The position numbers and the translations under genes were made by a program. A DNA stretch of 64,000 nucleotides from Hyphomicrobiales bacterium (GTDB taxonomy: Bacteria; Pseudomonadota; Alphaproteobacteria; Rhizobiales; CAJQND01): contig JANQOW010000133.1 of assembly GCA_028285595.1 (NCBI GenBank), positions 1 to 64,000 on the forward strand, read 5' to 3'. This document shows, piece by piece, positions 6,464 to 16,775 of this stretch. Position 1 is the first letter of the stretch. Each line of letters begins with the position of its first letter. The notes under the pieces were generated by a model. The model ran no database searches. It had not been told where the DNA came from and saw only the letters and a list, made by a program, of their open reading frames with translations.

Positions 6464-6476
6464 GGCTTAGGTTCAC

Positions 6477-7022
6477 ATGAAAACGGCGCTTGCAGCATTA
6501 GACCGTGCATTGAATAGACTTTACCTCTTGTGCGGGGTCATTGCTGCAGGTGCAATTGTCATGATCGCTGTTTTGGTGGCGCTCAGCATACTCTCGCGCC
6601 TTGCCGGTATCTATGTGGGTGGGCTCACGGAGGGAGCCGGATATGCCATGGCCGCCGCCGGCACGTTTGGGCTTGCCTACACGTTTGGTTCCGGCGGGCA
6701 CATTCGTGTTGATCTGGTTTTGAACCTGCTGCCAAGCAGACCGCGCGCCATAACGGAGTTGTTGGCGCTCGCTGTCACGACGGGTGTGATTGCCTTTCTC
6801 ACCTACTACTTCATCCGCATGGTCACGATCTCTTGGAAGTTTGGGGACCTGAGCGACGGGTCGGACGAGCTCCCGCTTTGGTTGCCCCAGTTCCCGGCGG
6901 CCTCCGGTTTTGCCGTTTTTGCCCTGGCCTTGTGTCATCACCTGATCCGTTACCTCGTCACACGTGAAGTCACCTGGTCGTCTGGTGCTGACAATCTTCT
7001 GGAAGAGCAGTCCGGAGACTGA
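6477..7022 (+). CDS. dctQ: TRAP transporter small permease (DctQ family)
   Basis: A 181-residue integral membrane protein with four hydrophobic segments, the standard size and topology for DctQ subunits. The segment GGLTEGAGYAMAAAGTFG (about 48-65) fits the family. It sits between the receptor and the large permease, with only 3 bp to the latter, so the three are surely translated together. It pairs with DctM to form the membrane complex; it has no transport activity alone. Confidence 0.88.
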   Translation: MKTALAALDRALNRLYLLCGVIAAGAIVMIAVLVALSILSRLAGIYVGGLTEGAGYAMAAAGTFGLAYTFGSGGHIRVDLVLNLLPSRPRAITELLALAVTTGVIAFLTYYFIRMVTISWKFGDLSDGSDELPLWLPQFPAASGFAVFALALCHHLIRYLVTREVTWSSGADNLLEEQSGD

Positions 7023-7025
7023 GAG

Positions 7026-8333
7026 ATGGATCCTGGGACAATGGCAATTGTGTTCGCGGCTATTTTGGTGGCCGTGCTCGCTCCCGGGGTGTGGATTGGG
7101 GCTGCATTGTTGGTGGTTGGTATTGCCGCCATGGCGCTGGGCTCACCGCGGCCTATCGGACCCGCGATGGCAACAACCGTGTGGTCACACATATCCCTTT
7201 GGGGTCTTGCCTCGCTGCCCTTGTTCATCTGGATGGGCGAAATTCTCTGCCGCACAAGGCTGTCGGAGAACTTGTTCAATGGTCTTTCGCCGCTGTTGCG
7301 GCGACTGCCAGGGGGGCTGCTGCATGTGAACGTTGCAGGGTGCACGGCGTTTTCTGCTATCTCGGGCTCCTCCGCGGCCACACTCCTCACGGTGGGTAAG
7401 ATCACCATGCCGGAGCTGAAGCGCAGAGGCTACCCGGACGCAATGGTTGGCGGCACCTTAGCGGGCGCAGGGACGCTGGGTCTTTTGATCCCGCCTTCTA
7501 TTACCATGATCATCTACGGCATCATGGTGGAGGAATCGATTGCGCGCTTGTTCATGGCAGGCTTGGTCCCGGGCCTGATGCTGGCCGGCCTGTTTGTGCT
7601 GTACAATATCGGCTGGGGACTGTTCACCGAAACAGGCCGTGCCATGCGCGAGGAACCGGCAGACTTCAAGCAAAAGCTATCGGGCCTGATGGAGTTGTTT
7701 CCCATCGTTGCGCTCATTGTGGGGGTTATCGGTTCGATCTACACGGGCATTGCCGCGCCGACGGAGGCAGCCGTATTGGGTGTTGCGGGTGCTCTTGTTC
7801 TTGCGGCTTTTCAAGGATCTCTGTCGTACGCGACTTTGTCTGAGTCTTTGATGGGCACGGTCAAGACCACCTCGATGATAACACTGCTGCTCGCAGGATC
7901 TGCCTTTCTAACCCTTGCGATGGGATTTGCCGGCCTGCCGCGGGCGTTGGCCGAGTGGATCGGCGCGATGCAGCTGTCGGCCACCGCTCTCATCATTGCT
8001 CTGATGGTGCTATACATGCTCCTGGGGTGTTTTCTTGACGGCATTTCAATGATCGTTCTAACGATCGCAGTCGTTGAGCCGCTCGTGAGAGCAGCCGGTA
8101 TCGATATGATTTGGTTTGGGGTCTTCGTGGTTCTGGTGGGTGAGATGGCTTTGATTACGCCTCCAATTGGCTTCAACCTTTTCTTGGTTCAAGGCATGAC
8201 AGGTCGCGACATTGGCTTTATTTCGCGTGCCGCTGCACCGATGTTTGGCTTGATGCTGCTCGGCGTGGTCATTCTGATCATGTTTCCCCAAATCGCACTA
8301 TGGCTACCGGAGGCCATGAGTTCTCAGAACTGA
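7026..8333 (+). CDS. dctM: TRAP transporter large permease (DctM family)
   Basis: A 435-residue, highly hydrophobic protein of the DctM/ion transporter superfamily with about twelve membrane segments. Family marks include ISGSSAATLLTVGKITMPE-like sequence near residues 117-135, LAGAGTLGLLIPPSITMI near 146-163, and GCFLDGISMIVLT near 336-348. It provides the sodium-coupled translocation path for the solute captured by DctP. It ends the M24-dctPQM unit; the next gene, selD, is convergent 54 bp away. Confidence 0.92.
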   Translation: MDPGTMAIVFAAILVAVLAPGVWIGAALLVVGIAAMALGSPRPIGPAMATTVWSHISLWGLASLPLFIWMGEILCRTRLSENLFNGLSPLLRRLPGGLLHVNVAGCTAFSAISGSSAATLLTVGKITMPELKRRGYPDAMVGGTLAGAGTLGLLIPPSITMIIYGIMVEESIARLFMAGLVPGLMLAGLFVLYNIGWGLFTETGRAMREEPADFKQKLSGLMELFPIVALIVGVIGSIYTGIAAPTEAAVLGVAGALVLAAFQGSLSYATLSESLMGTVKTTSMITLLLAGSAFLTLAMGFAGLPRALAEWIGAMQLSATALIIALMVLYMLLGCFLDGISMIVLTIAVVEPLVRAAGIDMIWFGVFVVLVGEMALITPPIGFNLFLVQGMTGRDIGFISRAAAPMFGLMLLGVVILIMFPQIALWLPEAMSSQN

Positions 8334-8387: not shown

Positions 8388-10634
8388 CTAAACTATAGAG
8401 AACGGCGTTGCCTGATCCTTCACTTCACCAATCACGGCCGCGGCGTCATAGCCGGCTTGTTGTAGAGCGTCGACACACTGCCGTGCGGACGCCGCTGGAA
8501 TACCTGCAAGCAAACCGCCGCACGTTTGAGGGTCAAAAAGGAGCCCCCTTTGCGAAGCCTGCACGGAAGCTACCTCCAAGCCGAAGGACTTGGCCGCCTG
8601 CATGTTTTTGGGTGCGCCTGAGCTCTCTATATCGGAGCCGAAACACTCAAAAACGCCCGGCAGCGCCGGTATCGCGCTGAGCCGAAGTTCGGCCGATGTG
8701 GACGATGCGCGCAACATTTCTCCGAGGTGTCCCAGAAGGCCAAATCCGGTGACGTCCGTGCACGCTGTGGCGCCGCATTCGGCCAGAATGCTGGCGGCCC
8801 GCGCGTTTGAGTGGCACATTGATGAGATCGCCTCATCTATCCAGCTTCCCTTTGCGACAAGCCGCATTTCGGCTGCAAACAGAACGCCGGTTCCAAGAGG
8901 TTTACACAATACCAGCTGATCGCCTGGCTGCAGCCCACCCTTTGCAAGCAGCCTCCCCGCATCGGCCAAGCCGTTTACCGTGAACCCCAGGGAGACGTCA
9001 CCAGCTTCCCCGGTGTGCCCGCCAATGACCGTCGCACCGGCTTGGTCGAATTCATGGACGGAACCGGACATTAACTGGAAAAGAAGTTCCTCAGCTTTTG
9101 AGGTATTGGACGGCGGCAGCGTTGCAATTGCTAGAGCAGACAAAGGCTTGGCACCCATAGCGTAGATGTCGCCAAGCGCGTGGAGCGCCGCAATGCGGCC
9201 AAACAGATAAGGGTCATCCACAATCGCCGTGAGGACATCTACCGACTGGACAAGTAGCTTGCCGGCAGGTACGGCGAAGCTTGCCGCGTCGTCCCAGAGT
9301 GTTGGGCGCTCGCGGGGAGTTTCCGGTCTATCGAGGTAAAGGTTCTGGAGTACGCTGCTCAATACCGTTTGGCCGACTTTTGCTCCACAGCCTCTGCACT
9401 GCATGGTCAGGCTCTGCATGAGAGTTGCCGTCGTCGCATCGGCGAGTCCTTGGGCGAGTGCAGGGGGTTCGGGCACTGGCATGGGTGGCAGAACGTTGAA
9501 CGCTTTCATGAAGCGCTGGTCGATCCAATCCTTGTAGCGCCAAGCCCAAGGGCCTTGTGCCACCAGATGGCCGCGCGCGGCGATCGCAGAACGCTTGCCT
9601 GTAGAGATCAATCTTAAGAAATCCTGTTGCGGCTTATAAGTGATGAGCGGCGCGCCACTGGCAGCCCTTCGCAGATTCTCAGCCAGTGGGGGACCTTCCC
9701 GGACTGCATAAACACCAGCGCGCGGCACATTATAGCCTCTAATCGCAGCAGTATCGCCGGCAGCGAAGACGTTCGGATGAGAAACGGACCTGAGCTCGGC
9801 GCTAACCTGCACAAACCCTCGGTTATCCAAGGCCAGTCCTGTGTCCGCGAGCCATTGAGGCGCCATCGCATCGGTGGCCCAGATGATGCTGTCCAACTCC
9901 AGATTGGAGCGCCCGTCAAACTCCACATGGGTCGGTGCGACCCGGGCAACCGGGTGCCCGAGGTGCAATTTTATGTCAGCATCCACGAGCGTCTGGTGAG
10001 CGCGGCGACGCACTTGCCGGTTGTTCTGAGCCAAGATCTCCGCGGCACGGTCAAGCAGATGGAGTTGCACCCTCGGCGCACCGCTGGATGTCCGAAACGT
10101 CTCAAACCGTTGCTTCAAAGCCAAGATCAACTCGACACCGGCAGCTCCTGCGCCAACAACGCCAATGGTGAAGTGGCCGGTGCTCTGTTGTAGGTGCGCC
10201 TCGAGCGTTTCCAGATAGGCGATGAAGCGATCGATCGGCTTAACGGTGACGCTGTGTTCGGCCGCCCCCTCGACCTTGCGTGTATCAGGCGTCGAGCCGG
10301 CGTTGATTGACAACAGATCGAACGCAACAGGCGGTCGGTCGTGACAGAGAACCTTGTTGCTTTCCAGGTCAAGCCCGACCGCTCGGCTACGGATCAGGCG
10401 CACGCCAGCGAACTGGCAAAGAGGACCAAGATCAATGTTCGTCTCGTCTTCACGATAATGACCTGCGATGTAGCCGGGCAGCATACCGGAGTAGGGTGTC
10501 AGAACGGTGGGGCTGATCAACGTGATGCGCAGGCCGGCCATCGGCTTCATACCAAAAGCCTTCAGAACGGTGACATGACTGTGACCTCCGCCAATCAGGA
10601 CAAGGTCCTTGGCCACCGGCAAGACTGACTTCAT
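8388..10634 (-). CDS. selD: Selenide, water dikinase SelD fused to an N-terminal FAD/NAD oxidoreductase
   Basis: A 748-residue fusion. Residues about 8-370 are a pyridine nucleotide-disulfide oxidoreductase related to NADH dehydrogenase type II (LVLIGGGHSH, GVVGAGAAGVE, NVFAAGDTA). Residues about 405-745 are SelD, which makes selenophosphate from selenide and ATP. The SelD active site reads CRGCGAK: by alignment to E. coli Cys17/Lys20, Cys416 and Lys419 are the catalytic pair. The ATG at 10634 is used; a longer frame would run into the tRNA-Sec gene. It is the last gene of the sel locus, starting 36 bp after selC. Such fusions are known; the oxidoreductase half may reduce selenium species for the kinase, which is inference. 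Confidence 0.93.
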   Translation of the reverse strand: MKSVLPVAKDLVLIGGGHSHVTVLKAFGMKPMAGLRITLISPTVLTPYSGMLPGYIAGHYREDETNIDLGPLCQFAGVRLIRSRAVGLDLESNKVLCHDRPPVAFDLLSINAGSTPDTRKVEGAAEHSVTVKPIDRFIAYLETLEAHLQQSTGHFTIGVVGAGAAGVELILALKQRFETFRTSSGAPRVQLHLLDRAAEILAQNNRQVRRRAHQTLVDADIKLHLGHPVARVAPTHVEFDGRSNLELDSIIWATDAMAPQWLADTGLALDNRGFVQVSAELRSVSHPNVFAAGDTAAIRGYNVPRAGVYAVREGPPLAENLRRAASGAPLITYKPQQDFLRLISTGKRSAIAARGHLVAQGPWAWRYKDWIDQRFMKAFNVLPPMPVPEPPALAQGLADATTATLMQSLTMQCRGCGAKVGQTVLSSVLQNLYLDRPETPRERPTLWDDAASFAVPAGKLLVQSVDVLTAIVDDPYLFGRIAALHALGDIYAMGAKPLSALAIATLPPSNTSKAEELLFQLMSGSVHEFDQAGATVIGGHTGEAGDVSLGFTVNGLADAGRLLAKGGLQPGDQLVLCKPLGTGVLFAAEMRLVAKGSWIDEAISSMCHSNARAASILAECGATACTDVTGFGLLGHLGEMLRASSTSAELRLSAIPALPGVFECFGSDIESSGAPKNMQAAKSFGLEVASVQASQRGLLFDPQTCGGLLAGIPAASARQCVDALQQAGYDAAAVIGEVKDQATPFSIV

Positions 10635-10670: not shown

Positions 10671-10764
10671 TGGCGGAAGAGGTAGGAGTCGAACCCAAAG
10701 GCGCGCAGTGCGCTCCTCCACCGGATTTGAAGTCCGGGCACCCCACCGGGGGAGATACTCTTCC
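10671..10764 (-). tRNA. selC: tRNA-Sec (anticodon UCA)
   Basis: The minus strand gives a 94-nt tRNA from GGAAGAG to CTCTTCC-G-CCA, with the CCA encoded. The anticodon arm is CCGGA-CUUCAAA-UCCGG, so the anticodon is UCA, reading UGA. There is a long variable arm with a GCGC-ACU-GCGC core, a D arm with a CCCC/GGGG stem, and a T loop UUCGACU. The 3' side of acceptor plus T stem is 12 nt rather than the usual 13 of bacterial tRNA-Sec. It lies between selB and selD on the same strand, 31 and 36 bp from each, and must be cut out of their common transcript if they are one operon. Confidence 0.95.
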
Positions 10765-10795
10765 GCTGATCAAGATAAGGCATACCGGTTTCGGT

Positions 10796-12718
10796 TCAAT
10801 CCGTTTCAGCCGTAAACAATTCGTCAGCAGGGCGTCGAAGGGTGCGATGGTTGTCCTTGCGGATTGTTAATCCTGCAAGGTCGAAAAACTCCAGTATTTC
10901 AATCGTGAGATTGCGCCCAAGGTCGCTATGGTCACGAAACATTTGCGCCGTAAACCCAGCATCCGGATGGTCGCTCGCGAGCCGTTCGGCCAGCCCGGCC
11001 AGGCTCGCCAGTTGTTCGGCTAGAAAGTACCGCGTGCTGCTCACTTGGGTCACATGCCCACGCCGGGCCATACGCGCCAGGAAGTCGTGCAAGTCTTCCT
11101 CGGAGATGTGCAACGCGTCTGAGGCCTCCGATACCATCGGCGCCCGCGTGCCGAAAGACCGGTAGAGTGCGCGGAGCTCGGCCAGCCGGGCTTGATCGGT
11201 GTCGGATATGCGGGCCTTGTGTCCAAGAAGGTGAAGCCAGGCACCTGAACGCTCAAGGCGCTTCTCCGCTAGCATTCGCGCAATCGCCGATGCAAAGAAC
11301 TGCAGGCTCGGTCGGGGAACCAGACAGGCGCGCAGTTCGGCCAGCGTTGCGCCAGGGCTTTCCGGCCGGGTGTCATGCCACTTCTTCAGGCTCTCCGTGA
11401 CATTTAAGACGAGGTCTTGCCAGTGCTGCGGATCCAAGGCCACCGTAGCTGAAGGCAGGGTCAGATCAATGGTCGGCACAGACGCCGCGATCCGTTCACG
11501 CTCAGTATCACCCAGGTTGTGCATCCAGGCATATCTCGCCAGGTCTGCGCCTTCTGGGTTCGCTTGAAGGAGCGCGCGAAACGCGTCCGCATCAGGTGGT
11601 TTGGCGAGCAATTCCAGAATCTCCAAACGCTCGGGCCGCGCCCGTCCGCGTGCTGGGGCGCCGGGGTCGATCACGAGACCGCCTGCAAATGTACTGGTCG
11701 CCGAGAGATCGCGAAGCACAAACCGGTCTCCGGCGAGGCAGGAGACGGGCTGTTCGAAAACCAGCTGTGCCAACCGATCTTCTCCCGGGGGAAGGCTCCT
11801 GCCTTCCAGGATATGAATGCTGGCGACAATATCAGCGGTGCCCAGGTGAATATGAGCTCGTGCGCCGGAGCGGATCGGCTTTTCACTTCCGGGTGTAAGC
11901 CTGATCCGGCAATCGGCCCGCTCCACCGGGTGATGCACCTCAGGCGCGACAATCCAGCTTCCTCTGCGGACCATGTCAGCAGAAACATTGATATTGAGGG
12001 CACATCTGTGACCTGCGGCGGCTTCGGTCGCTTCCAAACCGTTGACCCTGAGGGAACGAATGCGCACCTCCAGGCCTTGGGGTGAGATCACGCATCGCTC
12101 ACCGTTTTGTACTGTGCCACAGGAAATGCTGCCCGTTACGATGGTGCCTGTTCCCTTCAAGGAGAAGACGCGATCGACAGCCATTCGGAAACGCCCTTCT
12201 CTTGGGCGCCGCTGATAGCTGGCTGCCAAAGAGGCCAAATGACCGGTCAAGGCTTCTATGCCTTCACCTGACAGGCTAGACACACAGAACACAGGCGCGC
12301 CGCTCAAAAAGCTAGGAAAAGCTGAGGCTTCCAGCTCTGCAAGCAGTTGGTTCAACCTTTCTTTGTCCACCAAGTCTGTTTTCGTGACGATAATGGCGCC
12401 GGAGGTCACGCCGAGTGAAGTCAGGATCGTGAGGTGCTCATGGGTTTGTGGCATGATGCCGTCATCGGCGGCGATAACCAGCAGCGCATAGTCGACCGCA
12501 CCCACGCCTGCCGCCATGTTGCGGATAAAACGCTCATGGCCGGGAACATCCACAAAGCCAATGCGCGTGCCGTTGTCCAAGGCAAGGTAGGCAAAGCCAA
12601 GATCAATCGTCAGGCCGCGGCGCTTTTCTTCAGGCAATCTGTCCGTATCGATCCCGGTGAGCGTTTTGACGAGGGACGTTTTGCCATGGTCCACATGACC
12701 GGCCGTGGCAACGATCAC
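10796..12718 (-). CDS. selB: Selenocysteine-specific elongation factor SelB
   Basis: A 640-residue translational GTPase. The G1 motif AGHVDHGKT (residues 5-13), the G3 DVPGHE and the G4 TKTD are all visible, followed by EF-Tu-like beta-barrel domains (about 170-340) and a C-terminal winged-helix region (about 390-635) that in known SelB binds the SECIS hairpin. It delivers Sec-tRNA(Sec) to UGA codons carrying a SECIS. Its ATG overlaps the selA stop as ATGA, showing translational coupling. Length matches SelB of other bacteria. Confidence 0.95.
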
Positions 12719-14133
12719 CGCTGAGCACTCCTACCCGACACATTGAGCAGCTTGAGCTGATCGACAAAGGTTTGAGTGTCGTCAAGGCAGCGCAAGTCCA
12801 TGATGAAGCGGTTGCCGGTCAGGCGGCCGATGACCGGCACGGGAAGTTGACGGAATGCGGCGCTGAGCCGGGAAAGGGAGCTGCTTGTCTTAATGGCGAT
12901 CCCTGCGCTCTGTGTCTCGGCTGTGGGGAGCGCCCCGCTGCCCACTTGGCTTTTGCAGGAGACAATCTCGGCCCGGCCGGTATGGCCCAAAGCCTGTTCG
13001 ACGACCGGTCTCAGGTTCTCAGCTTGGCGTTCAATATCGGCCAGTGAGCGGTTCAGCATGCGCAGGACCGGTATTTTGTCTGCCACCTTCTGCGGGTCCA
13101 GGTAAAGTTGGAGCACGGCCCTCAAAGCTACGATCGACACCTTGTCCATGCGCATTGCCCGTTTCATTGGGTTGCGCTTGATGCGATCGATCAATTCGGC
13201 TTTGCCGACAACGATCCCGGCTTGAGGGCCACCCAGGAGCTTATCACCGCTGAAGGTGACTATGTCCGCGCCCGCTGCAACCACATCAGCGACTGTCGCC
13301 TCATTTGGGAGGCCAAACTGCTCAAGCTTGACCAATGTGCCGCTTCCCAAATCGACCATGAACGGCACAACATGTTGTTGTGCGATCTTGGCGAGATCAG
13401 AGGTCGGGACGGCTTTTGTGAAGCCGTTGATCAGGTAGTTGCTGGTGTGCACCTCCATCACAAGACCTGTGGTGCGGCCGATGGCGTCGGTGTAGTCGTG
13501 GGCATGGGTGCGGTTGGTGGTGCCAACCTCGTGCAGCTTTGCGCCTGCCCGCTTCATGATATCGGGCATACGGAAGGAGCCGCCAATTTCGATGAGCTGG
13601 CCGCGGGCCACCAGAACTTCCTTGCGCAGCGCCAGCGTGTTCAAGCTCAACATTACGGCAGCCGCATTGTTGTTGACCACCGTGGCGGCCTCTGCACCGG
13701 TTAGACTGCAAATTAGGCGCTCCAGATGCGTGTCCCGGTCGCCGCGCCGTCCGCGCTGCAGATCAAATTCCAGGTTGGAGGGATAGCGCGCCGCTTGTTC
13801 CATCGCGGCAATGGCTTCTTCGGGCAAGGGCGCACGTCCGAGGTTGGTGTGGATGACGGTTCCGGTCAGATTAAACACGCGCGCAGGGGTTGCGGTGATC
13901 AGCTGAGCCAGATCCTCTCTCACCTTGGCGGCCAGATGTGCGGCGGGATTGCTGGTGAGATCAACCGATCCGCCTTCGTCAAACCGCCGGCGGACATCCG
14001 CAACCGATTGCTGTACTGCGGCCAGCACATGCGCGCGGCCAAATTCCTGGACGACATCGCTCAGTTCATCGCTTCTAAGAAGTTCATCGATCGATGGGAT
14101 TTTTCTGAGTTCTGCCTTCGTGGGTGACGCCAT
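12715..14133 (-). CDS. selA: L-seryl-tRNA(Sec) selenium transferase SelA
   Basis: A 472-residue PLP enzyme that converts Ser-tRNA(Sec) to Sec-tRNA(Sec) with selenophosphate. The PLP lysine is Lys298 in FSGDKLLGGPQAG; upstream marks include GTVIHTNLGRAPL (about 91-103) and TVVNNNAAAVML (about 151-162). I start at the ATG that opens MASPTKAEL; a TTG 12 codons upstream is possible but lacks a ribosome site. It follows the selenoprotein gene after about 135 bp and overlaps selB by ATGA. Confidence 0.95.
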   Translation of the reverse strand: MASPTKAELRKIPSIDELLRSDELSDVVQEFGRAHVLAAVQQSVADVRRRFDEGGSVDLTSNPAAHLAAKVREDLAQLITATPARVFNLTGTVIHTNLGRAPLPEEAIAAMEQAARYPSNLEFDLQRGRRGDRDTHLERLICSLTGAEAATVVNNNAAAVMLSLNTLALRKEVLVARGQLIEIGGSFRMPDIMKRAGAKLHEVGTTNRTHAHDYTDAIGRTTGLVMEVHTSNYLINGFTKAVPTSDLAKIAQQHVVPFMVDLGSGTLVKLEQFGLPNEATVADVVAAGADIVTFSGDKLLGGPQAGIVVGKAELIDRIKRNPMKRAMRMDKVSIVALRAVLQLYLDPQKVADKIPVLRMLNRSLADIERQAENLRPVVEQALGHTGRAEIVSCKSQVGSGALPTAETQSAGIAIKTSSSLSRLSAAFRQLPVPVIGRLTGNRFIMDLRCLDDTQTFVDQLKLLNVSGRSAQR

Positions 14134-14268
14134 TTCCAGGGTGTCTGACGCCAGTCGCGCCGGCGGCAACCATGTATTGTTAGAGGACGAAAAACCCTCT
14201 AACAGTTGGCACCTGCAAAGGCAAGGATCTGAGCACCCTTCGCAATCAAGGGCTTACGCTGAACGCTC

Positions 14269-15483
14269 TCACAGCTCCAATGCTTCGACCCAATCTCTCG
14301 GCACCAGGCCGGAGCTCCCGACAATCTTAAATCGGCGATCTTCGGTTTCCAATCCTTGGCGTCTCAGATCTACAAGGATCTGAGCCGCCACAGTGTGTCG
14401 CCAGAACCATTCGCCCAGTTGCCAGGACGACGGTCTGCCGCCATGTGCGGCTGCCTCCATGTAATAGGCCTTCAGGTCGTCGGCCCCGAAGCGCAGTGTC
14501 ATCGCGGCTGACAGATCTGCCCGTGGGCTGTTTTCGTGGGGGCCGCTCAGGAAAGAGACCACGTGCTCAGCGATCGTGCTCATGTGAAGTTTGGAGACGC
14601 CGACGGTTGTCCGACCTTTGTCGGCCACCGCTCTCGCATATAACGGCTGAAGATTGGAAATCTCCGCCTCAAGAGACCTCAGAACGGCTGCGCCGTCGGT
14701 AAGATCCACCGATCCGCAAGTCTCCCAGGGGGCTTGCCAGCTCTCATCACGCTCTGCGACATCGCCGTCATACTCAAAATCGACAAGCACCGCAGGGCCA
14801 TCGTCGCTTTCCAGCAAGCTCAGCGCGCGTGCCAACACTTGGCGCTGCAGTGCCGGATCGTTGGGTGGCCCAAGCGGGCGGCCAAGCTCAAATGGCACCC
14901 AAACCGACCGTGGAGGCTTTATCTTTTCCGCATGCAAACGGATCAAGCTGATGCCTGTTGTCGCCAAGCCTTCATCTTCCAGAAAGTGTCCGAGTACGCT
15001 CACGGCGCACGTGCAGAACGGTCAAACGGGAAGAAGGAGGACGGTGTCGACGTTATCGGCCTTCAGCGCTCCAGCAAGCTCGCGGGCATGGGGCTCCATA
15101 GTCAGAGCATTGGCGCCTCCCATGAACGAGTAGTGCGTCGATGCAACGGAGCCGATCTTACCTTCATCGGCCAAACTGGCCATGTGCTGAAGCGGAAAGA
15201 TCGCCTCCAAGTCCTGCTGATAGGCCGTGCGATCGTATCCCAGCGAGATATGGCTCATAACGATGTCATTGCTATCAGTGTCGTTCGGAATTGCCCGATA
15301 GCTGGGATCGTTGCCGGTGAAGTGCGCATCGTCACGGCGATGAATACCTGCCGACGACACGATTGCAATACGACGCTCATTCAACGAACCGCCCGTCACC
15401 CAGGGTGTTGCTTCAAACTCCGGGCACTCCAGGCGCTTAATATTCTCTCGCGAGATATTTGTTAATTTTGACAGCTCTACCAT
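14269..15483 (-). CDS. Selenoprotein B-family reductase (glycine/betaine/sarcosine/proline reductase family) with in-frame UGA as Sec154
   Basis: Two adjacent same-frame reading frames are joined by a single UGA at 15024-15022. Read through as selenocysteine they make one 404-residue protein. The first part ends VDTVLLLPV, then U154-P-F-C157-T-C159, then VSVLGHFLEDEG and PPRSVWVPFELGRPLG. This order (hydrophobic strand, Sec, UxxC motif, helix, then PPR...PLG) is that of the selenoprotein B family that includes GrdB-like and PrdB-like proteins. It lies directly upstream of selA, selB, selC and selD, and a hairpin follows the UGA. Known relatives reduce C-N bonds of glycine derivatives through a partner complex; no GrdA, GrdC or GrdD partner is seen here, so the substrate and reductant are unknown. 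The ATG start has AAAGG upstream. Confidence 0.88.
14990..15021 (-). promoter_or_regulatory. Candidate bacterial SECIS hairpin
   Basis: Immediately after the in-frame UGA the mRNA has an 11-nt spacer, then GUGCGC-CGUGA-GCGUAC, a six-pair stem (one G-U) with a five-base loop containing GU. The first three bases after UGA (CCG) can also pair with CGG just past the stem. In E. coli fdhF the SelB-bound hairpin likewise begins 11 nt after UGA and has GU in its loop. The position and loop support decoding of the UGA as Sec; binding has not been shown. Confidence 0.65.
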
Positions 15484-15604: not shown

Positions 15605-16504
15605 CTATTTGGTCTTCTGCGAGGCAAACATATCTGCAAAGAAATCGACCATCTGAGGAATCATTTGATCGCCTCGCCCTTGCGTGAGAGCAATCGACAT
15701 TGCCTGCTTGGCGCTCTGAGACATCAGACTGGGAACGCCGGCATCGTCTGCCATGGTAGAGTAGTAGCCGATATCCTTACGACCATTCTTGATCGCAAAC
15801 TCAAGTAAATTCGGATTGCCATCGACGGCGTAGCCTTTGACGAAATCCATCACACCTGAATGCAGTGGACCAGCAGACATCACATCATAGAGCGTTTGCC
15901 GGTCAACCGATGCAAGATCCGCCATGGCGAAGGCTTCCGACATCGACGAGGCCACAGTCATTGCGAAGAAGTTGTTGATGAGTTTGACGGTGTGCCCGGC
16001 CCCGAGTGGACCAAGGTGAAAAACGTTCTCGCCGAGATCATCAAGCACAGGCTTGACGCGGTCGAACACAGCCTTTTCTCCCGCCCCCATGATGTTAAGC
16101 AAACCATCAACGGCGTGCGCAGGTGTGCGTCCGAGGGGCGCATCCATGTAGTCTGCTCCTGCGGCCGAAACTTCTGCCCCAAGTTCACGTGTTGAGGCCG
16201 GCAGCGATGTGCCGAAGTCTATAACCGTCATGCCGTCTGATAGGCCTGCAATGACACCATCAGCGCCGCGCATGCGGGCTTCGACTGACGCGGAAGTGTC
16301 CACGCAAAGCATGACCACGTCGCTGGCTTCCGCCAACTCTCGACACGTTTTGAACTCCGTCGCACCTCGGGCGACGGCGGCGTCGACATTGGCGCGGCTG
16401 CGGTTGGCGATGACATTGAGCTGATAATCGAGCGTCTGCAGCCTCTGGGCCATCGCGGAACCCATTAGGCCGAGGCCAATAAATCCAATTGCCGGTTTGG
16501 TCAT
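15605..16504 (-). CDS. NAD(P)-dependent beta-hydroxyacid dehydrogenase
   Basis: A 299-residue protein of the 3-hydroxyisobutyrate/6-phosphogluconate-type family. The Rossmann motif GFIGLGLMG is at residues 6-14, the substrate-side signature DAPLGRTP near 119-126, and the catalytic lysine lies in GHTVKLINNF near residue 172. The start is the ATG opening MTKPAIGF, with GGGGAG upstream; a longer frame upstream lacks support. It oxidises a beta-hydroxyacid or reduces the semialdehyde; the substrate is not visible. It is on the same strand as the selenoprotein gene, 121 bp upstream of it, and could share its transcript. Confidence 0.88.
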   Translation of the reverse strand: MTKPAIGFIGLGLMGSAMAQRLQTLDYQLNVIANRSRANVDAAVARGATEFKTCRELAEASDVVMLCVDTSASVEARMRGADGVIAGLSDGMTVIDFGTSLPASTRELGAEVSAAGADYMDAPLGRTPAHAVDGLLNIMGAGEKAVFDRVKPVLDDLGENVFHLGPLGAGHTVKLINNFFAMTVASSMSEAFAMADLASVDRQTLYDVMSAGPLHSGVMDFVKGYAVDGNPNLLEFAIKNGRKDIGYYSTMADDAGVPSLMSQSAKQAMSIALTQGRGDQMIPQMVDFFADMFASQKTK

Positions 16505-16775
16505 TTGTCTGATTTCTCTCCCCTTGGACGAAAAGCTATTCGCCTCTGATGTGCACAATCACTCTACGAGTGCCGTCTTTGTGCACTATTCGCAGTCCAA
16601 GGCAAACACGTTTCCAAACATGGCTCCCAGAAGGACTATTCGGCTTCAGTATTCGTCTTGGAACGACTTTTGCCTCGAAGGTCATCTTAGAAAACGTGTG
16701 TTTCGTGATGAAACACCGTTGGCACATTCAGCCGTTCACCGGGCAGTGAACTGTTGGCGCCAAGAAAGAGAGGCA

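Follow-up and report, generated by a model that had tools for sequence, protein, structure and literature searches.

A gene on the minus strand (14269–15483) of the window, i.e. of the complete stretch of 64,000 nucleotides that was analysed, is interrupted by an in-frame UGA, which raises the question whether this codon is translated as selenocysteine (Sec) and what kind of protein is then produced. Two open reading frames in the same frame, 15483–15022 (153 aa) and 15003–14269, are separated by one TGA (15024–15022). Readthrough from the ATG at 15483–15481 to the stop codon TGA at 14271–14269 yields a protein of 404 aa with Sec154 in the context LLPV-U154-P-F-C-T-C-A-V, which contains the redox motif U-P-F-C. 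The earlier note had described the same two stretches, single UGA, protein length and U154-P-F-C-T-C motif without giving the strand; the plus strand of 14269–15483 was rejected as the gene, the coding strand being the minus strand. A promoter-like site upstream of the gene scored no better than chance. Frames of comparable size joined by a TGA occur only twice in the window. The second case is the TRAP transporter pair dctQ (6477–7022) and dctM (7026–8333) on the plus strand (window 6471–8333), again in the same frame with a single TGA in between. This TGA mimics the signal of a Sec codon and is most simply explained as an ordinary stop followed by a start.

The surroundings contain selA, selB, selC and selD, all on the same strand as the selenoprotein gene and in the order selenoprotein gene, selA, selB, tRNA-Sec and selD, as had been proposed earlier. 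The selenocysteine synthase gene selA (12715–14133, minus strand) matches TIGR00474 with 584.6 bits; its putative start is the ATG at 14133, the mechanical ORF beginning at 14169. Its end overlaps by 4 nt with selB, encoding the Sec-specific elongation factor (10796–12718, minus strand; TIGR00475, 404.4 bits). The tRNA-Sec gene selC (10671–10764, minus strand) was detected by ARAGORN and by Rfam model RF01852 (62.6 bits, cut-off 47). It lies 31 nt past the selB stop codon without being nested in selB (10671–10796, minus strand); nesting of tRNA-Sec within selB is described for many Rhizobiales (PMC8124441). The selD gene (8388–10634, minus strand) encodes a fusion with an N-terminal pyridine-nucleotide-disulfide oxidoreductase domain (TIGR00476, 282.9 bits; TIGR03169, 470.9 bits). 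Its start is likewise putative; the mechanical ORF from 10721 would overlap tRNA-Sec. The fusion additionally matches the NCBIfam model TIGR04369 (506.6 bits, below the cut-off of 700), whose name ‘fusion_not_SelD’ could thus mislead the annotation of true Sec loci. A beta-hydroxyacid dehydrogenase-like gene (15605–16558, minus strand; PF03446/PF14833) is located 122 nt upstream of the selenoprotein gene and is a putative member of the operon. Between the selenoprotein stop codon and selA, a perfect 9-bp inverted repeat, TGTTAGAGG/CCTCTAACA, was found at 14178–14204. It is not followed by a T-run and possibly forms a regulatory hairpin.

The set of homologs was drawn from relatives, GTDB contigs and a sample of 385 genomes of the class. 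Comparison of position 154 across related genomes, proposed in the earlier note as a check, yielded TGA in 42 and a Cys codon in 3 of the 45 full-length homologs, while P155 and C157 were invariant in the same alignment (n = 45). The dN/dS values downstream of the UGA are mostly 0.08–0.18, with a maximum of 0.43, indicating purifying selection. Among the 385 sampled genomes, selA was present in 29 of the 30 with the full-length Sec form, compared to 27 of the 355 others (Fisher p = 6e-27), and in none of the three Cys-form genomes. The single Sec-form genome in which selA was not found (G304, locus L069) is rated 100% complete; an assembly gap, a contaminant contig or decay may account for this case.

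A SECIS apical hairpin was located at 14994–15010 on the minus strand, with the stem formed by 15010–15005 and 14999–14994 and the loop CGUGA at 15004–15000. In the family, a five-base loop CGUGN begins 17 nt past the UGA. The bacterial SECIS model places the loop 16–37 nt from the UGA and features an early G followed by G or U (PMC13188914), with which the distance of 17 nt and the G followed by U observed here agree. Codons of the hairpin are fixed at their synonymous sites, namely CGC in 34/35 (expected 0.47), GCC in 40/40 (0.45), GTG in 36/40 (0.38), GGC in 18/18 (0.62) and GCG in 22/22 sequences (0.40). Inside the long family alone, the covariation of the stem is moderate. Short Sec paralogs of ca. 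300 aa form the stem from CAGAC/GTCTG, as compared to CGCGC/GCGCG in the long family, around an unchanged loop. When both groups were combined, 93% of the stem cells were paired, 49 cells were doubly changed (17.6 in shuffles) and the covariation score was 0.688 (0.228 in shuffles). The fold of the single sequence is unremarkable (z = −0.13), i.e. the signal is a comparative one. Based on the TGA/Cys column, the selection past the UGA, the SECIS element and the co-occurrence with selA, the gene almost certainly encodes a genuine Sec protein, as the earlier note had claimed.

The protein consists of a Sec domain (residues ca. 32–240) and a helical domain of ca. 150 residues (ca. 264–404). Its best NCBIfam match is TIGR04483 (PrdB), with 102.8 bits over residues 33–238 and an equivalog cut-off of 300. 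The search against PF07355, also proposed earlier, gave 38 bits, which is above the cut-off of 22, the match covering only profile positions 222–344 of 347. The GrdB models TIGR01917 and TIGR01918 reached 39.3 and 43.6 bits (cut-offs 602.2 and 65.45), with matches confined to profile positions 222–423 and the N-terminal half of the profile left unmatched. In a maximum likelihood tree of the Sec domain, in which the bootstrap was not fully settled and GrdF formed a long branch, all 40 long proteins clustered in one group (100/99) and the paralogs of ca. 300 residues in another (99/92), with PrdB outside both. By these sequence comparisons, the protein is neither GrdB nor PrdB, but falls into a clade of its own. 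Its previous assignment to the selenoprotein B family therefore holds at the level of the PF07355 superfamily and not for GrdB as such, since the nearest model is PrdB, the clade is separate and a C-terminal domain is added. The short alphaproteobacterial PF07355 paralogs, which are annotated as ‘glycine/sarcosine/betaine reductase selenoprotein B family protein’, are the sister group; they often contain Sec, then with the identical SECIS loop, but are devoid of the 150-residue C-terminal domain and feature the motif UPVCHQT. Four of them (L119, L121, L122 and L126) have U-P-L-D-H-Q-T, with Asp at the position of the resolving Cys, hence Sec without a partner thiol. Plasmid matches were restricted to PrdB and short paralogs and aligned across the Sec domain, and no homolog was found in phage records.

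The AlphaFold2 model shows a Rossmann-like domain in which Sec154 is located between strand 147–152 and helix 155–170 (pLDDT 83.8). The Sec domain retains H78 and the YDR motif common to PrdB and GrdF, and the region of H78, D84 and R85 is invariant in the family. The C-terminal domain is confidently predicted as seven helices (pLDDT 90.8). Residues 245–404 matched no Pfam or PHROGs family, and a fold search of this domain alone against the PDB gave nothing convincing (best Z 3.3), which is not proof of a new fold. With the whole model, only generic Rossmann or periplasmic-binding-like folds were retrieved (best Z 8.6, rmsd 3.6, 140 aligned residues), Foldseek returned nothing below 1e-3 and the family profile matched no PDB sequence.

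D-proline and glycine reductase chemistry depends on a pyruvoyl subunit. The GrdE/PrdA pyruvoyl subunit (PF09338) was detected in none of the 34 family genomes, while it was found in two clostridial plasmids that served as positive control. GrdA (PF04723) was likewise not found in the 34 genomes, in a search run without a positive control. The earlier statement that partner subunits are absent is in line with both results.

Of 46 loci examined, 14 have sel genes at most 8.5 kb away from the selenoprotein gene (selD in 11, selB in 10, selA in 7), as identified by clustering with the sel proteins of the window. Recurrent catabolic neighbours include CoA transferase III, SDR, Zn-ADH, D-2-hydroxyacid dehydrogenase and a xanthine-dehydrogenase-type enzyme; acyl-CoA dehydrogenase, TauD dioxygenase and glutathione S-transferase (GST) genes also recur, the latter concentrated in few lineages and hence suggestive. 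No neighbour is universal, and the neighbourhoods differ among lineages, so that no single pathway emerges from the context. The GST, CoA transferase, dehydrogenase and dioxygenase neighbours suggest that an organic acid is broken down or detoxified.

The source genome contains one PF07355-type homolog, while many sister genomes have additional Sec paralogs. No TGA was present among the FdhA-like and peroxiredoxin matches listed for the source genome and SelW is absent from it, i.e. a second selenoprotein was not found among the families tested (FdhA, peroxiredoxins, SelW). Sec-FdhA occurs in only 5 of the 31 Sec-form genomes. The 26 carriers without it, together with the outcome of the searches in the source genome, fit the earlier idea that this selenoprotein alone may keep the Sec machinery, and the linkage to selA-selB-selC-selD suggests that the protein is a main client of this machinery in the lineage. 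Two COX1 (cytochrome-oxidase subunit I) genes in the source genome fit aerobic respiration, and thereby the ‘likely aerobic’ lifestyle assumed before.

We infer, at a probability of roughly 0.55, that the protein is a stand-alone PrdB-related reductase, in which a selenolate attacks an electrophilic small substrate and is then released by Cys157. In GrdB and PrdB, the selenolate attacks a C–N bond. In the proposed mechanism, the Rossmann-like domain would present Sec154 where a helix begins, and its selenolate would attack the electrophilic centre of the substrate. Cys157 of the U-x-x-C motif would resolve the Se adduct, giving a selenenylsulfide that cellular thiols could then reduce. Activation of the substrate as a Schiff base on a pyruvoyl subunit would be impossible where this subunit is lacking; substrate binding or dimer formation would probably be taken on by the C-terminal helical domain. 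The GrdB-like Sec protein FarB (fluoroacetate reductase) of Cloacibacillus, for which attack on a C–F bond was proposed from genomics and transcription, is comparable in that cleavage of a non-amino C–X bond is assumed, but it originates from an anaerobe and acts together with FarE and the glycine reductase complex (PMC10838667).

The U-x-x-C motif alone would also fit a general thiol-disulfide or peroxide reductase, and the Sec form of G304 without detected selA is a further point against the small-substrate reductase. A thiol-redox selenoprotein on a PrdB fold, in which Sec154 and Cys157 act as redox pair on disulfides or peroxides without cleaving a bond in a small substrate, is a less likely reading. 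It gains support from the replacement of Sec by Cys in 3 homologs and from GST genes recurring nearby in several lineages. On the other hand, the model is Rossmann-like and not a thioredoxin fold, the other positions shared with PrdB and GrdF (H78, D84, R85 region) are invariant and the neighbours are catabolic rather than stress genes. That selA, selB or selD lie nearby in 14 of 46 loci could also point to an accessory protein of selenium metabolism, which delivers, stores or senses selenium on behalf of the sel operon instead of being a metabolic enzyme. We consider this improbable, as a delivery factor that itself needs Sec would be odd, the full-length Sec form is missing from 27 sampled genomes that have selA, and Cys forms are found where selA is absent.

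An identity as genuine D-proline reductase PrdB or as glycine-type reductase protein B is very improbable, although PrdB is the best NCBIfam match and PF07355 is exceeded. PrdB shares the homologous Sec domain (33–238), Sec at the same position, U-x-x-C and a conserved H..YD motif; GrdB, GrdF and GrdH (glycine/sarcosine/betaine reductase protein B) share the common family PF07355 and U-x-x-C. PrdB, in contrast, comprises ca. 240 aa with the motif UGTCHRS and has PrdA as pyruvoyl partner, as opposed to 404 aa, an extra helical domain, UPxCTRA and neither PrdA nor GrdE in the present family. GrdB has an N-terminal part of ca. 200 residues and the motif UxxCxxC, and needs GrdE and GrdA/GrdC, none of which was found here (GrdA without control). 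With a score of about one third of the PrdB cut-off, UPxCTRA in place of UGTCHRS or UGTCTRC, the missing pyruvoyl partner and the separate clade, the canonical proteins were rejected. Three further readings of the UGA, namely a true stop, pseudogene decay and an error in sequencing, have nothing but the stop codon itself in their favour and were rejected as having next to no probability in view of the identical codon in 42 homologs across many genera, Cys in 3 others, purifying selection past the UGA and the covarying SECIS.

Sec-containing ‘PrdB’ of marine bacteria has been catalogued computationally since 2005 and 2008: it belonged to the commonest selenoproteins both in the Sargasso Sea, with 42 genes (PMC1088965), and in the GOS data, with 235 sequences (PMC2398784), and was read as proline reductase in both. 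These UxxC Sec proteins from mostly aerobic waters probably include the present family. In the passages of the two reports that deal with them, they are named D-proline reductase, without discussion of the absent pyruvoyl partner or of the C-terminal domain. A 2026 catalogue of 119 families covers PF07355/TIGR04483 only by GrdB and D-proline reductase (PMC13188914). Judged by these catalogues, Sec-‘PrdB’ as such is already known, and what is new is the long subfamily, which has a C-terminal domain of its own and no pyruvoyl partner.

A bolder reading, which we hold as less likely than not, is a pyruvoyl-independent family of Sec reductases that carries a new helical domain and belongs to aerobic Alphaproteobacteria. 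It would cleave a bond reductively in the presence of air, in a reaction not described before, and would be the main reason for keeping the Sec machinery. If true, most of the ‘PrdB’ recorded in selenoproteomes of the surface ocean would be something other than D-proline reductase. Independently of this, alphaproteobacterial ‘PrdB/GrdB’ Sec genes occur without the pyruvoyl subunit, so that their usual name implies a wrong reaction. Proteobacteria usually retain selenocysteine for the sake of formate dehydrogenase. The 26 of 31 carriers devoid of Sec-FdhA keep their sel genes, often beside the gene described here, which turns the purpose of selenium in these aerobes into a testable question.
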